Source: Erysipelotrichaceae bacterium (GTDB lineage Bacteria > Bacillota_I > Bacilli_A > Erysipelotrichales > Erysipelotrichaceae). Taken from it: a stretch of DNA of 64,000 nucleotides. Below are positions 38,162-44,467 of the stretch, in pieces (the first letter of the stretch is position 1; each line of letters starts with the position of its first letter). The DNA lies in assembly GCA_017404785.1 (NCBI GenBank), contig JAFRBQ010000019.1:1-64000 (forward strand). The letters are read 5' to 3'. The translations under genes and the position numbers were made by a program. A model generated the notes under the pieces. It made no database searches, was not told where the DNA came from, and saw only the letters and a program-made list of their open reading frames with translations.

Positions 38162-40006
38162 ATGAAAAAATTCCTGATAATATTACTGGTCTTATTGATG
38201 CTCAGTGGCTGCAAGAAAGTCCCTGTCAATAATGATCCGAAAGAAACTGAAAATGGCGTAAGCTGTGAAGGCAGACACTATGTTGAACTGATGAGAAACT
38301 ATAAAGTCGGTGACAAGAAAGTTTCAGCCGACTGCGACAATGAAGATTTTGAACAGTTCTTGAATGATATCTTCTCGGAAATGATAACATCCGACTTCCT
38401 GGATATGCATTTTCTGGTGATTGATTATAAAGCCATGGGTCTGGAGAAGCCTGAACCTAAGCTTCGCAGTATTTCATACTCTTTGAATACCGATATGCTG
38501 GATTACTATGATGGAATCCTGGAAGACCTTCATACTTTTGATTATCAGAAACTCTCAAAAAGGCAGCAGTATGATTACGATACTCTTGAATATTACTGTT
38601 ACTCATCCATGGCCAAGACCTGTTTCTATCGCTATGAATTTATCATTGGTGAAAGACACAACGAGATCGAAGATCTGGCCAGTTATTTTACCGATTATAC
38701 TTTCTATGATGAGGAATCAGTCGACGATTATCTGATGCTGGTAAGTGATATCGACCGTTTTTTTGATGACATCCTTGTCTATGTAGATGATATGGCCAAA
38801 GCCGGTTATCCGATGACTGATGATTGGATAAACTACACGCAGGACATCTGCAAGAACTTCAACAACAGAATCGACAACAATGTCCTGATCGTAACTTTTG
38901 ATAGAGCCATAGATGCTCTGGATTTCCTGAGTGAAGAGAAAAAGGCCGAAGTAAAGAAACAGAATAAGGAACTGATCATTAACGAAGTCATTCCTGCCTA
39001 TAAAAAAGTCGCAGAAGAACTGGAAAAGTATCGCGGCAAAGCCAAGAATGAAGACTATGCCTTATACAAACTTGATAAGGACTATGCCGATTATCTGTTC
39101 ATGTCTACATCCAGCTCAAACAAGACCGTTGATGAACTTTTCCAGGATATTTCCGATGCCTACTCACTTCTTCAGGCTGAATTTGTATCCTGCTATTATG
39201 ATAAGGAAGCCTGGCAGGAGGCTTTGAATATTGTAGGCGGCGGTAACCAGACATTCATTCTGGAAGGCAGGGATTGTCTTGAATACATGAGATCGAAAAT
39301 TCCGGTATGTCTTCCTGATTTAGGCGAAGTCGAATATACCGTTGAAGAACTCGATCCTGATGTAGCGCCGGAGAATGTAAAAGCCTATTATTGGCCTAAC
39401 CCAATCGATAATTTCAATCAGAACATCATCCGTACCAATCCAGCCAATCTGCGCGATTATATTGACCGCTACTCAACCTTGGCTCATGAAGGTATGACCG
39501 GGCATATGTTCCAGAGCGTCTTCTATTCAAAGACAAATCATAATAATGTGCGAATATATCTCGACTTTATCGGGTATACGGAAGGATGGGCTGTTTATTC
39601 ATCATATCTGTCATTTGTGATGGCTGAACTCGGTTATGAATATCTTCCATCAGTACTTTTCTATGAGACGAATTATTATTTCCTCGAGTATTCATTGATC
39701 GATATCATGACGAATTATTACGGTTACAATGCCGACAAGATATACGATTACTTTGATGAAAACTCACTATTGGTGAAAGAACGTGATGAGATCGAAGCGA
39801 TCAGAGGATTCATGCTGGAAATGCCATGTGCATATACGCCATACGGTTTAGGCTATTCAGAGATTATCGACCTGCGGGAAAACGTCAAACTGAAGATGAA
39901 AGATGATTTCGATCTTGTCGATTTCAATGAATCATTGCTGATCAATGGCAAGATGCCGTTCAACATCCTGGAAACATATATAAATGATCGTTACGGTATC
40001 AGCTGA
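38162..40006 (+). CDS. DUF885 family lipoprotein, predicted zinc peptidase
   Basis: A 614-residue secreted lipoprotein: signal peptide with lipobox LLMLSGC (Cys about 18), then a long helical DUF885 fold. The metallopeptidase signature is LAHEGMTGHMFQ (about 440, HExxxGH), with a second conserved Glu in YTEGWAVYSSY (about 472). DUF885 proteins are gluzincin-like carboxy- or oligopeptidases; outside the membrane it would cleave peptides for uptake. GAGG lies 8 nt before the ATG, so it has a normal leader and TATAAT farther upstream. It overlaps the convergent BspA-like gene by 8 bp. Confidence 0.82.
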   Translation: MKKFLIILLVLLMLSGCKKVPVNNDPKETENGVSCEGRHYVELMRNYKVGDKKVSADCDNEDFEQFLNDIFSEMITSDFLDMHFLVIDYKAMGLEKPEPKLRSISYSLNTDMLDYYDGILEDLHTFDYQKLSKRQQYDYDTLEYYCYSSMAKTCFYRYEFIIGERHNEIEDLASYFTDYTFYDEESVDDYLMLVSDIDRFFDDILVYVDDMAKAGYPMTDDWINYTQDICKNFNNRIDNNVLIVTFDRAIDALDFLSEEKKAEVKKQNKELIINEVIPAYKKVAEELEKYRGKAKNEDYALYKLDKDYADYLFMSTSSSNKTVDELFQDISDAYSLLQAEFVSCYYDKEAWQEALNIVGGGNQTFILEGRDCLEYMRSKIPVCLPDLGEVEYTVEELDPDVAPENVKAYYWPNPIDNFNQNIIRTNPANLRDYIDRYSTLAHEGMTGHMFQSVFYSKTNHNNVRIYLDFIGYTEGWAVYSSYLSFVMAELGYEYLPSVLFYETNYYFLEYSLIDIMTNYYGYNADKIYDYFDENSLLVKERDEIEAIRGFMLEMPCAYTPYGLGYSEIIDLRENVKLKMKDDFDLVDFNESLLINGKMPFNILETYINDRYGIS

Positions 40007-41858
40007 TATACCAGTCTGGTACAGCAGTTCCGCTGATTGAACCGGCATTGTCCGCAAAACAGTTACTCATATCTATGACACTGGAGACATTCCAGTGTTT
40101 TAGTTTGCCCAGATCCTGTCTGTAACAGCCACTGAAGGCATATGATATGTCTTCAAGACCATTAGTATCCCATGAAGAAAGGTCGACATTTACAAACCTG
40201 TTAAGCATGAACATTCTGCTTATATTCTTCAGAGAACTTATATCAAGATCTTCTATACCGTTTATTTCGCTGAGACGAGATTGTTCAATCACAGAGTTGT
40301 ATTCAAACATCCCTGAAGCATTCACAAGCTTTGAAGTATCCCATCCTGTAATATCAAGTGTTTCAAGACTCTTGCTTCCATAGAACATTCCTGCGGTCGT
40401 CGTTACATTACTTACATCCCAACCTGTCAGATCAAGATCCTGAGGGGCAATGAGTGCACTGTTATAAAACATCATGGAAAGATCATTACACTGATTACTA
40501 ACGTTCCAATACTGAATATCATCAAGATCTTGAAGATTCGGACAATCCCTGAACATGCTTTCAAAAGAAGTGACCTTTCCAACATTCCAGCCTGATATAT
40601 CTCCCAGATCGCTCAGATTCGTCTTATCAAACATCTTTGACATATTGAGGACATTTCCGGTTTCAAAACCGCTTATATCCATACTGTTCAGACCGATGCA
40701 TGAAGAAAACATCCCTGACATATCCTGTACATTTTCTGTATCAAGTAGTGAAAGTCCAATAATACTGGTCAGATTCTGTGATGATTCAAACATGGAAGCC
40801 ATGTTTTGGCATACTGTCGTATCCCAGGAAGACAGATCTAGATTTGCAAGTCTTCTAAGCTGAGAAAACATCCTGGACATATCCTTTACTTTGGAAACAT
40901 CCCAGCTGCTCAGATCAAGACTTGTGAGCTGTCGGCATTGATAAAACATGCTGTTCATATCTTCAACATTTGAAGTATTCCAATCATATATGGAACTGAA
41001 ATCGCTGATATAGGAATTATTGAACATGTGGGACATATCCTTGACGTTAGAGACTTCCCAGTCGCTAAGATCGATTGTACGCAAACGGGTCGTTCCTTCG
41101 AAAAGATGTGACATATTCTCTATATTTGAAGTATCAAGATCACTCAGTCCGCTGATCGTGCTGACACGGTTGGCTCCTGAAAACATCTTTGAAATGTCAT
41201 CACATTCACTTAAATCAAGAAGATCGATATTCCTTATTTCAGTAACCGTAGTTATGTCCTTGAATAGTTCGGACATATCCTGATTGGCTTTTATTTTGAC
41301 AGGAACACCATTGGAGATAATGATCCTTTTTTCTGCATCGATCTCATAAAGCATCACCGAGCTGTCTTTTGCCAGTGATATGTCATAGGAACGATCACAG
41401 GTATCTATTACCTGATTGGAAAATTCGATACATGTGGGACCATAGGCGGTAAAATACTGGTTTAAGAGTTTACCACTTATAAGAATGTTGCCTGGACAGG
41501 TATTTTCAAGTCTGATGGAGAGACCCAAGTTTCCGCTCCATTCTCCAGCGGGGATCGGTAGAAGATGATAGCCGACTGTTTTTCCTGAAGTATCACCGGC
41601 TTCGATGATAATTGAAGAATCAGTGGTATAGCCACTGATGTCTTCCTTGCCATGAGAATCCGAGATCGTAAACGTCTGATCAAAGTCAATATACAGAGTT
41701 TCATACTGACTCAGATCATTTTCGACGACGTTTATATCAATGTATCCATCTTCAACGATACTTATATTATTGGGGATCTTGATGATGTAGGTATCTTTGC
41801 AGGGCCCTAGAAAAAGCATTGAAACAAGAAGTGAAAGGTTTAATAGAGAAGTCGCCAT
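39999..41858 (-). CDS. BspA-like leucine-rich-repeat (DUF285) protein with N-terminal beta module
   Basis: A 619-residue exported protein. Residues 1-20 are a hydrophobic, Lys-free signal segment. Residues 23-120 form a beta-rich module ending PAGEWSGNLGLSIRL that resembles the two small proteins upstream. Residues 190-600 hold about 15-16 repeats of 20-25 residues with the DUF285 pattern DLSxWDxSxVxDMSxMF. BspA-type proteins bind host matrix and other bacteria. No LPXTG or C-terminal membrane anchor is present. GGGAGG precedes the ATG, and the gene begins 1 nt after its upstream neighbour, so the cluster is an operon. Confidence 0.82.
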   Translation of the reverse strand: MATSLLNLSLLVSMLFLGPCKDTYIIKIPNNISIVEDGYIDINVVENDLSQYETLYIDFDQTFTISDSHGKEDISGYTTDSSIIIEAGDTSGKTVGYHLLPIPAGEWSGNLGLSIRLENTCPGNILISGKLLNQYFTAYGPTCIEFSNQVIDTCDRSYDISLAKDSSVMLYEIDAEKRIIISNGVPVKIKANQDMSELFKDITTVTEIRNIDLLDLSECDDISKMFSGANRVSTISGLSDLDTSNIENMSHLFEGTTRLRTIDLSDWEVSNVKDMSHMFNNSYISDFSSIYDWNTSNVEDMNSMFYQCRQLTSLDLSSWDVSKVKDMSRMFSQLRRLANLDLSSWDTTVCQNMASMFESSQNLTSIIGLSLLDTENVQDMSGMFSSCIGLNSMDISGFETGNVLNMSKMFDKTNLSDLGDISGWNVGKVTSFESMFRDCPNLQDLDDIQYWNVSNQCNDLSMMFYNSALIAPQDLDLTGWDVSNVTTTAGMFYGSKSLETLDITGWDTSKLVNASGMFEYNSVIEQSRLSEINGIEDLDISSLKNISRMFMLNRFVNVDLSSWDTNGLEDISYAFSGCYRQDLGKLKHWNVSSVIDMSNCFADNAGSISGTAVPDWYIS

Positions 41859-41859
41859 A

Positions 41860-42279
41860 TTAACTGCCTCCCTGCAAAGATATCGCTACATTCATGTATC
41901 CAAACCAGGTTCCAGCACTAAGCTTTGTATGGGAAATTGACACGCTGGAACGCATGTAATCTTCATTCAGTTCACTGCAGGTCCAGGAGTTTTTACTCTG
42001 GCTTACAGTAACGGGGATAGATCTGTCGTTGCATGAGATATAAGTATCGGCGAATACGATACTCAAGGTCTGATCGGCATAGATATCGCCCTTAACATAA
42101 AAATCCATAATTGTATTTTCATTTATGACATTTACTGTCTTGGGAAGCTTGACAGTATAACTTGGAGCTTTGGTGTATATCATTGAAACTGTATAGTTTC
42201 CTTCGTCGGTATAATCCTGAGCTGTGCAGACCATCGTGAACATATGAAACAGCAGTAATGAAAGAAGAACTTTTTTCAT
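41860..42279 (-). CDS. Small secreted beta-sandwich protein, paralogue of the next upstream gene
   Basis: A 139-residue protein with an N-terminal signal peptide (KKVLLSLLLFHMFTMVCTA, cut near residue 20). The mature part has VKLPKTVNVINEN, DFYVKGDIYADQTLSI, WTCSELNEDY and ends in LSAGTWFGYMNVAISL. The same string of elements, in the same order, occurs in the 42321-42770 product and in the N-terminus of the BspA-like protein. The ending is reminiscent of fimbrial or WxL-type beta-sandwich domains, but I cannot name a family. AAGGAA lies 6 nt before the ATG. Confidence 0.6.
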   Translation of the reverse strand: MKKVLLSLLLFHMFTMVCTAQDYTDEGNYTVSMIYTKAPSYTVKLPKTVNVINENTIMDFYVKGDIYADQTLSIVFADTYISCNDRSIPVTVSQSKNSWTCSELNEDYMRSSVSISHTKLSAGTWFGYMNVAISLQGGS

Positions 42280-42295
42280 ATATATTCCTTGATCA

Positions 42296-42318
42296 GGGAT
42301 GCAGGCCCTGACAATGGA
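42296..42318 (-). other. Intercistronic stem-loop in the surface cluster
   Basis: TCAGGG / CCCTGA arms around CCTGCAT lie between the two small secreted genes, just upstream of the second ribosome binding site. No T run follows, so an mRNA-stability or partial-termination role is more likely than full termination. Confidence 0.4.
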
Positions 42319-42320
42319 TC

Positions 42321-42770
42321 TTAAGAACCGGATGCGTTATCCAGACTTATCGTGATCGGGAGCGTACCACTGTATGTTCCGGCGCCCAGTGTGGCATGGG
42401 TGAGAGTGAAGGTTACGATGTCGCTGTTGTTGTATTCGGCTGGAAGTTCATCATAGGTGAACGGACCTCCTGAATGCGAGACATTTACAGTGACACTGCT
42501 TCTGCCCAGGGAATCGGAAAGGGTAGCTGTTTCACCGGAAGTGATATTTAGCTGCTTGTCGGCAGTGATATCGCCCTTTACCTTGACGATGAAATCAACA
42601 GAGTTGTTAAGTACATCGACGACAGTTGGGAGTGATGCGTAATATGTCGACGTTCTGGTAGCGATCAGAGCTACACTGGTATCTGCAGAGACTTCCTGAT
42701 CTTCGGCCGCAACTCTGTTAGGCACGATAAGCGCCAGAAGCATTACAGCCAAGACGATTAATTTCTTCAT
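42321..42770 (-). CDS. Small secreted beta-sandwich protein
   Basis: A 149-residue exported protein: signal peptide KKLIVLAVMLLALIVPN with a cut after AAA/RVAA (about 22). The mature part contains YYASLPTVVDVLNNS, DFIVKVKGDITADKQLNI, FTYDELPAEYNN and LGAGTYSGTLPITISLDN. There are no cysteines and no anchor. It is a paralogue of the downstream gene and matches the module fused to the BspA-like protein. The GTYSGTLPITISL end recalls strands in fimbrial or WxL domains. AGGAG lies 5 nt before the ATG. Confidence 0.6.
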   Translation of the reverse strand: MKKLIVLAVMLLALIVPNRVAAEDQEVSADTSVALIATRTSTYYASLPTVVDVLNNSVDFIVKVKGDITADKQLNITSGETATLSDSLGRSSVTVNVSHSGGPFTYDELPAEYNNSDIVTFTLTHATLGAGTYSGTLPITISLDNASGS

Positions 42771-42779
42771 ATGTTCTCC

Positions 42780-43271
42780 TTACTTTGTGATAGAAATTTC
42801 CTGTTTCTGTTTAATCCCGGACCACAATACCGTTTTATCATTCATGTCAAAGGAGGCGATCGAATAGGTCAGAGTATGTTTACCTGCATTTAAACATTCA
42901 TAGATATTGAACTCCTCCATCTTCCCCGGTTCTATGAGCTTGGAACTGTAAAGCATTTCTTCATTCTCATAGACATCAAAACTCAGATAGACCTCATTGC
43001 CTTCCGGATTAATCAGATAGATGAAGGGGAAATCCTTATCGATATCAAGACAGCCAAAACCCATAACTTCGGTGTATCCTTCTTCTTTGTGATGATGATT
43101 TGGATCAAAATCGATTGAGCTCTGAGTATCTGACACTTCTATGTCAGTTTTTATTGTTTTGCGATCAGAAAAATTAACTAAAAGCCAGATAATGAAGAGA
43201 CTCATGATGAGAATCAGAATAAACATCAGAATGATGATGAGTTTTCTTTTTGACTGTTTCTGTTTTTCCAT
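42780..43271 (-). CDS. Membrane-anchored extracellular domain protein, first gene of the surface cluster
   Basis: A 163-residue type II membrane protein: basic cytoplasmic start (KQKQSKRK), one membrane span (about 11-33) and an extracellular part with a His-rich patch (DPNHHHKEEG, about 56) and a beta-rich domain (YLINPEGNEVYLSFDVYEN, LIEPGKMEEFNIY, LNAGKHTLTYSI). The start at 43271 is preferred because the ATG at 43289 merely contains the AAGGAG ribosome binding site. It leads an operon with two secreted beta proteins and the BspA-like protein, and could anchor or receive them. No family recognised. Confidence 0.6.
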   Translation of the reverse strand: MEKQKQSKRKLIIILMFILILIMSLFIIWLLVNFSDRKTIKTDIEVSDTQSSIDFDPNHHHKEEGYTEVMGFGCLDIDKDFPFIYLINPEGNEVYLSFDVYENEEMLYSSKLIEPGKMEEFNIYECLNAGKHTLTYSIASFDMNDKTVLWSGIKQKQEISITK

Positions 43272-43342
43272 AAGAAATTTCTCCTTCATTCTTTATGAGC
43301 CGGAAAGTGGCGAAATTCCTACCTTAAATTTTAAAAAAACAT

Positions 43343-43390: not shown

Positions 43391-44467
43391 CTATAATCTC
43401 TGATCTATTGTTTCAATGACCATTCCATCTTTGATATAGACCCGGCTCACTCGGTCAGTGATGTTTGTGAGCAGTTCATAAGTGATGGTGTTAAGCTCTT
43501 TGGCACGATCTTCTATAGAGATATGATCGCCGAAAAGTTCAACGATGGTGCCTGTTTCATAAGGTATTTCCGTATGTATCATCATCTGATCCATACATAT
43601 ACTGCCGGCAATCGTGGCATATTCCTTACCTATATATACCTGTTTACCGCTGTTGGCTCTGAAAAAGCCATCCCCGTATCCTACAGGCAGGGTGAGGATA
43701 TAGCCGCTGCCATCGCTTGTATAATGTCTTCCATAGGAAACGGTCTCGCCTTTATTAAGCTTTTTCACCATGACGACTTCACTGAACAGTCTGATCGCCG
43801 GTTTTACAGGCACGTTATAGGAACTGAATCCCAGTAAACCCAGTCCGATCCTCTGATGAGTACAGAAATCATCTTTGATGATGATGGCGGAGTCTGTCGC
43901 ATTCATGTGAATGCATGAAAAATCATAATGAAGAGATGTGACACAGTTTCTGAAAAGTTCATACTGCTTCAAGGAATATTCAGGGTCATTATCAGCACTG
44001 GATAGATGAGACATGATGCCTTCGATGTTTGCGCCTTTGCCTTTCAGAAGTTCCAGCACCTGTTTTGCGTCATCAGGATTGATACCAATCCTGTTCATTC
44101 CGGTATTTATCTTCATCTGAACATTGACATCTTTAAGATCGGCCTTCTGGACAAATTCCCTGCTTAGAGTGACTATACTGATATTCTTTTCTCTGATGAT
44201 ATCCATACTCTCAAGTGGAACATAACCCAGAACGACTATCTTGTCATCGATGCCGTGAGCTCTTAAACGCAAAGCTTCATCAAGACTCGATACAGCAAAA
44301 AAAGCTACACCGACTTCCTTTAGAGCCTTTGCTTCCATGTAGTCAATGGTGCCATATCCGTTGGCTTTAATGACACCGATTATCTTTTTTTCAGATCTGT
44401 TTCTGAAGAATTTTACGTTACTTTGTATGTTGTCCAAATTGACTTCAACATAGGTTTTTCTGAACAT
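43391..44467 (-). CDS. alr: Alanine racemase
   Basis: PLP-dependent L-/D-alanine interconversion for peptidoglycan. The 358-residue protein has the PLP lysine in GVIKANGYGT (about 32-41), SYGRHYTSDG (about 238), LPVGYGDGF with catalytic Tyr (about 256) and SICMDQMMI (about 290). Length is typical. It stands alone with its own terminator. TAAAAT at 44474-44479 ends 6 nt before the ATG, so the message is probably leaderless. Confidence 0.95.
   Translation of the reverse strand: MFRKTYVEVNLDNIQSNVKFFRNRSEKKIIGVIKANGYGTIDYMEAKALKEVGVAFFAVSSLDEALRLRAHGIDDKIVVLGYVPLESMDIIREKNISIVTLSREFVQKADLKDVNVQMKINTGMNRIGINPDDAKQVLELLKGKGANIEGIMSHLSSADNDPEYSLKQYELFRNCVTSLHYDFSCIHMNATDSAIIIKDDFCTHQRIGLGLLGFSSYNVPVKPAIRLFSEVVMVKKLNKGETVSYGRHYTSDGSGYILTLPVGYGDGFFRANSGKQVYIGKEYATIAGSICMDQMMIHTEIPYETGTIVELFGDHISIEDRAKELNTITYELLTNITDRVSRVYIKDGMVIETIDQRL

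Follow-up and report, generated by a model that had tools for sequence, protein, structure and literature searches.

The 64,000-nucleotide window analysed here (positions 1 to 64,000 of contig JAFRBQ010000019.1, assembly GCA_017404785.1) comes from a ruminant-gut Erysipelotrichaceae bacterium and contains a compact cluster of four genes for surface and secreted proteins. All four open reading frames lie on the minus strand in the order TM-S1-S2-BspA, where TM is the first gene, S1 and S2 encode small secreted proteins and BspA is a BspA-like fourth gene, and the cluster sits between alr (43391-44467) and a convergent DUF885 gene. The gaps are short (9 bp between TM and S1, 41 bp between S1 and S2, 1 bp between S2 and BspA) and good ribosome binding sites precede S1, S2 and BspA, in agreement with the original prediction of a single operon with good ribosome binding sites. 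The TM start at 43271, chosen in the same prediction, is preferable to the start of a longer reading frame at 43289 because AAGGAG lies upstream of it and TM orthologues are about 162 amino acids (aa) long. The features of the cluster are as follows.

42780..43271, minus strand: TM, a one-span membrane protein of about 163 aa with a short cytoplasmic N-terminus, predicted anchor or holder (from sequence and orthologues)
43176..43244, minus strand: TM transmembrane helix (hydrophobic stretch read from sequence)
42783..43064, minus strand: predicted extracellular immunoglobulin (Ig)-like domain of TM, without a Pfam name, with conserved N-P-x-x-N and P-G
42321..42770, minus strand: S1, a small secreted protein consisting of a signal peptide and one module
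42654..42680, minus strand: S1 N-terminal extension with alternating V33-L35-A37, a candidate donor strand
42342..42644, minus strand: S1 module, a predicted incomplete Ig fold resembling chaperone-usher pilins
41860..42279, minus strand: S2, a second small secreted module protein
42169..42195, minus strand: S2 N-terminal extension with alternating V31-M33-Y35
41875..42159, minus strand: S2 module (from profile comparison)
39999..41858, minus strand: BspA-like secreted protein of 619 aa, presumed adhesin
41505..41798, minus strand: BspA N-terminal module, directly after the signal peptide
40002..41273, minus strand: BspA DUF285/TIGR02167 (PARCEL) leucine-rich-repeat region

The BspA repeat region is a clear member of the DUF285/PARCEL family (PF03382, E 1e-80; TIGR02167, E 1e-43, ten stretches). 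A promoter and terminator scan gave results at the level of shuffled sequence.

Three of the four proteins share a domain. A search within the bacterium's own genome aligns S1 with S2 at 32% identity (E 2.6e-14) and S1 with the BspA N-terminus weakly (E 0.01). When orthologues are included, the S1/S2 profile matches the BspA N-terminal profile with an hhalign probability of 99.0 (E 3.5e-18) over 95 columns, which take in the closing AGxWxGxLxxxIxL segment. By sequence, S1, S2 and the BspA N-terminus carry one common domain, the shared beta module that had been recognised from the window alone. TM is, also as first described, a one-span membrane protein with an extracellular beta domain, and that domain is unrelated to the module (profile comparison probability 0.3). 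Neither domain has a name: Pfam and NCBIfam scans of TM, S1 and S2 returned nothing above cut-off, and searching the PDB by sequence yielded no significant relative that matches the TM domain or the module over its full length. Weak matches to choice-of-anchor, DUF4402, SCPU, FliL and Sigma_reg_N families were dropped as below threshold and inconsistent across members; a Bap-type PDB match (7dm0) extends over about 30 residues. A search of the genome contigs with S1 alone and a scan of viral sequences with TM gave no match.

The association of TM with the module was followed through 36 genomes, here called the genus (labelled G000 for the window's assembly, G003, G004 and so on), whose named records are Erysipelotrichaceae and Solobacterium metagenome assemblies, many of them from the rumen or other ruminant gut. 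The module is found in 16 of the 36 genomes and the close TM family in 15; both occur in 15, the module only in one and neither in 20 (Fisher p 2.9e-9; diverged TM copies in G004 and G032 are left out of this count). The module-only genome is G032, whose locus is cut at a contig end, and a 17th module match, in G011, was discarded as a multi-span membrane protein. With TM in 15 of the 16 module carriers, the homologues do co-occur, as the original prediction implies. The order TM-S1-(S2)-BspA is kept in 13 genomes, mostly between alr and the DUF885 gene. Inheritance as one operon contributes to the p value for co-occurrence, so that the stronger evidence is pairing at different places: in G008 TM accompanies a 413-aa protein with a C-terminal module, and in G019 module proteins of 132 and 376 aa, in neither case with leucine-rich repeats. 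The pairing of TM with the module thus survives a change both of cargo and of place.

Several further observations concern these loci. The lipoprotein-like DUF885 gene (38162-40006) converges on the BspA gene, overlaps its end by 8 bp and is found beside the cluster in almost every related locus that is not truncated. In G032 (locus L133, 470-5432), a diverged 268-aa TM-like protein is encoded beside three tandem small secreted beta proteins, which end in AGxYxDTLTYTAAI-like segments, and a 612-aa secreted protein; this is probably a further variant of the same system. The window's assembly itself is probably a mixture of two species, since the end of its contig C4 (170000-180958, locus L007) is 99.97% identical over 10,959 bp to G014, another species, and repeats alr, the cluster and pcrA.

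The pairing extends well beyond the genus. In seven other genomes of the order (G130, G128, G058, G039, G088, G105 and G040), genes for TM-type ectodomains directly adjoin genes for module proteins (E about 1e-20 to 1e-3 in small sets of reading frames). The neighbours of the TM type are a 911-aa BspA-like protein and a small module protein in G130, ubiquitin plus the module in G039 and G088, and a 1938-aa repetitive secreted protein in G105; in G040 a lipoprotein form stands in place of TM. Outside the order, tblastn finds TM homologues with 40-53% identity in Listeria monocytogenes, Enterococcus mundtii plasmid pLDW-8, E. raffinosus and Ruminococcus albus plasmid pRUMAL01. Distant TM relatives adjoin module proteins in Enterococcus, L. 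monocytogenes and R. albus, where the cargo consists of BspA repeats, beta-helices or ubiquitin. In E. mundtii pLDW-8, BspA and TM precede three small module proteins and a small LPXTG-like protein, and the annotation goes no further than "BspA family" and "hypothetical"; Listeria has three large proteins with a C-terminal module (the one scanned is a PARCEL protein), after which come TM, a small module protein and an LPXTG protein. The module recurs next to BspA-type genes in other bacteria, G130, E. mundtii and Listeria among them, which the original prediction had put forward as a check. In many relatives, each TM is accompanied by just one module protein.

Secreted proteins joining a ubiquitin-like domain to a C-terminal module occur at L105 4864-5589 (PF00240, E 1e-22), L103 3480-4160 and L136 10361-11101, and adjoin TM homologues in two Erysipelotrichales genomes and on pRUMAL01. 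Plasmid pLDW-8 has two BspA genes in its cluster (L135 3973-8145 and 10131-12116); the plasmid is conjugative, so the cluster can move between strains.

The small and the large module proteins of the genus differ at their N-termini. All 21 S1/S2 proteins have hydrophobic residues at positions -10 (V/I) and -8 (L/M/V) before the tyrosine of the first strand; position -6 is mostly A or another apolar residue. The mean beta moment of this extension is 1.82, compared with 0.96 when positions are permuted jointly (fraction 0.005). In all 13 BspA proteins, the first strand starts within a few residues of the signal peptide; the module begins right after the signal peptide, leaving BspA without an N-terminal extension. 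Read from sequence, this asymmetry is what would be expected if S1 and S2 are able to act as strand donors and BspA solely as an acceptor.

Structural models were made with AlphaFold2 as monomers (S1 from an alignment of 27 rows, TM from 15) and the fold searches were made blind. The S1 model (mean predicted local distance difference test score, pLDDT, 88.5) has seven strands, with the first 18 mature residues in none of them. Foldseek ranks CfaB first against the PDB (E 6e-4, probability 1.0), then CS17, CsuE, FocH and Caf1, with FimH and PapG also high, and in a second fold comparison (VIA) most of the top 50 matches are chaperone-usher pilins (best Z 7.0). For TM (pLDDT 84.4), Foldseek places PapD first (E 6e-3, probability 0.99), with FimC, Caf1M, FaeE, SfaE and CupB2 among the top 50; the resemblance is to the fold of the PapD N-terminal domain. 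By sequence, a profile built from diverged modules picks up CS17, CS20 and Caf1, though weakly (E 0.2-8.5). It is striking that, of two unrelated beta domains in the same operon, the predicted fold of one retrieves pilins and that of the other pilus chaperones; Z scores below 8 are not proof. TasA and the solved WxL complex 9i25 are not among the fold matches listed; we give this absence no weight.

Searches for the hallmarks of known surface systems were negative. LPXTG is absent from the C-termini of all four proteins, and there is no sortase match in the bacterium's own genome (76% complete) or in the near-complete carriers G003, G008 and G029, consistent with the initial report of no LPXTG motif and no sortase. 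The WxL family PF13731 has no match in the 36 genus genomes, no WxL motif occurs in S1, S2 or the BspA module, and profile comparison of the module with WxL gives 5.7% and 0.1%, that of TM with DUF916 0.06%. The outer-membrane usher PF00577 likewise has no match in the 36 genomes (the E. coli control matched). TM has no Pfam match, to chaperones or otherwise, and S1, S2 and TM have no Pfam or NCBIfam match to TasA/camelysin.

On balance, we favour the reading that the four genes specify a surface-display assembly that needs no sortase and is held together by beta-strand complementation, with TM as anchor, S1 and S2 as subunits and BspA as adhesin. All four proteins would be exported via the Sec route. 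TM would remain in the membrane, where its one Ig-like, PapD-type domain would serve as a holder or chaperone; S1 and S2 would be pilin-like subunits, each with an incomplete Ig module and an N-terminal strand that fills the groove of the next subunit. BspA, whose module lacks such a strand, would accept but could not donate, and so would cap the chain and display its DUF285 repeats as an adhesin, giving the order TM, S1, S2, BspA from the cell outward. Strand exchange, this order, the length of the chain and adhesion are what we infer from the data above. Of the arrangement first proposed, a non-sortase anchor with two small subunits and a DUF285 adhesin, the composition, the shared module and sortase independence within the genus stand, a polymeric fibre is one form that it may take, and its uniqueness does not hold. 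A broader extension can be put forward tentatively, with more doubt than belief: that single-membrane Bacillota make usher-free donor-strand pili, in which a membrane-tethered PapD-like domain starts a pilin-like chain that ends in exchangeable cargo, whether a BspA adhesin, a beta-helix or ubiquitin.

Several results weigh against strand-exchanging assembly. S2 is present in only about half of the loci. In other genera an extension-like strand also precedes the C-terminal modules of large proteins, so it could belong to the module in cis, and two TM-like proteins encoded side by side in G114 (L102 6063-7598) have an additional cytoplasmic domain but no neighbour that can be recognised as a module protein. 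Ig-like folds are common; the second fold comparison for TM is mixed (best Z 7.3 to GbpA, plus glycosidase domains and cupredoxins), both best Z scores are, by the tool's own guidance, usual for models that have no clear match, and family scans give no significant sequence link of S1 or TM to pilins or chaperones. A static platform of the WxL type, in which the modules attach to both the cell wall and the TM ectodomain and hold one BspA adhesin each, with no chain or fibre, is possible, and we rate it below the assembly by strand complementation. Its composition would parallel that of csc/WxL clusters (PMC1534035, PMC9772566), where a strand of the WxL-interacting protein is predicted to insert into the WxL sandwich and close a gap in it (PMC10599100). 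The small Listeria LPXTG protein is near NF053819, the EF2685/EF0750 family (43.6 bits, cut-off 47), and EF0750 and EF2685 are located in E. faecalis WxL loci; the single module protein per TM in many relatives also suits a platform. However, there is no WxL or DUF916 relationship by sequence, the nearest folds of the module are those of pilins, and the asymmetry in N-terminal strands between small and large proteins is what a chain needs.

The moderate structural scores would also suit a module that is a mere common secreted beta-sandwich, in four surface proteins with separate functions in one operon; this is improbable, given that TM and the module stay paired across loci, genera and orders despite the change of cargo and co-occur as counted above. 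It is very improbable that TM acts as a sensor or anti-sigma-like protein that monitors the secreted proteins and signals their state, a role to which its short cytoplasmic tail and the weak Sigma_reg_N match (E 0.06) could point: no regulator gene adjoins TM, and relatives of the G040 type swap the helix for a lipoprotein signal, a form that could not signal inward.

The cluster thus brings to light two nameless protein families that are regularly encoded together, from ruminant-gut Erysipelotrichales to Listeria and Enterococcus, with varied cargo. If strand complementation is true, it would explain how many BspA-type and other secreted proteins are retained on the surface of Gram-positive gut bacteria without LPXTG, and would give WxL clusters, TasA and chaperone-usher pili a shared principle that can be tested.

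The statement that no described system has this composition was overstated, as csc/WxL clusters (CscA-D, WxL, WxL-interacting protein) match it, though with different protein families; we found no earlier description of the present cluster in the open-access library searched, and one may exist elsewhere. In csc/WxL clusters, a membrane-anchored Ig protein is encoded with small single-domain proteins and with a large protein that adds adhesive domains, sometimes leucine-rich repeats, to the same domain (PMC1534035, PMC9772566, PMC10599100). The likeness lies in a membrane-anchored beta domain beside small and large secreted proteins sharing one domain, and in predicted strand insertion between partners. 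The cluster described here differs in having no WxL motifs or domain and no DUF916 or DUF3324, in a TM with a single Ig domain behind an N-terminal helix, and in the N-terminal position of the BspA module; a small LPXTG protein, frequent in csc/WxL clusters and not obligatory, is absent from the window's cluster and the genus and present in the Listeria relative.

Chaperone-usher pili (CFA/I, Csu, type 1, P) provide the nearest folds, pilins for S1 and, by Foldseek rank, PapD-type chaperones for the TM ectodomain, and share an extension on the subunits with none on the presumed tip protein, here BspA. Here, in contrast, there is no usher and no outer membrane, a single-domain membrane-tethered holder replaces the soluble two-domain chaperone, and the adhesin domain is C-terminal to the module. 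The TasA/TapA fibres of the Gram-positive Bacillus subtilis, which rely on strand donation and have an Ig partner resembling a chaperone (PMC9674648, PMC10151520), would share the principle of strand complementation; the present cluster differs in its leucine-rich-repeat adhesin, its membrane-anchored partner and the lack of a family match of S1, S2 and TM. Sortase-built pili differ by their LPXTG proteins and sortase, for which the searches above found no match. The BspA-like/PARCEL family (DUF285, TIGR02167), to which the repeat region of the fourth gene belongs, is defined by its repeats only, and the parts seen of its description (PMC2996958) contain neither the module nor the TM, S1 and S2 partners that are added here. 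The cluster is a member of none of the WxL, TasA/TapA and chaperone-usher systems; it is analogous to csc/WxL clusters and built from different protein families.

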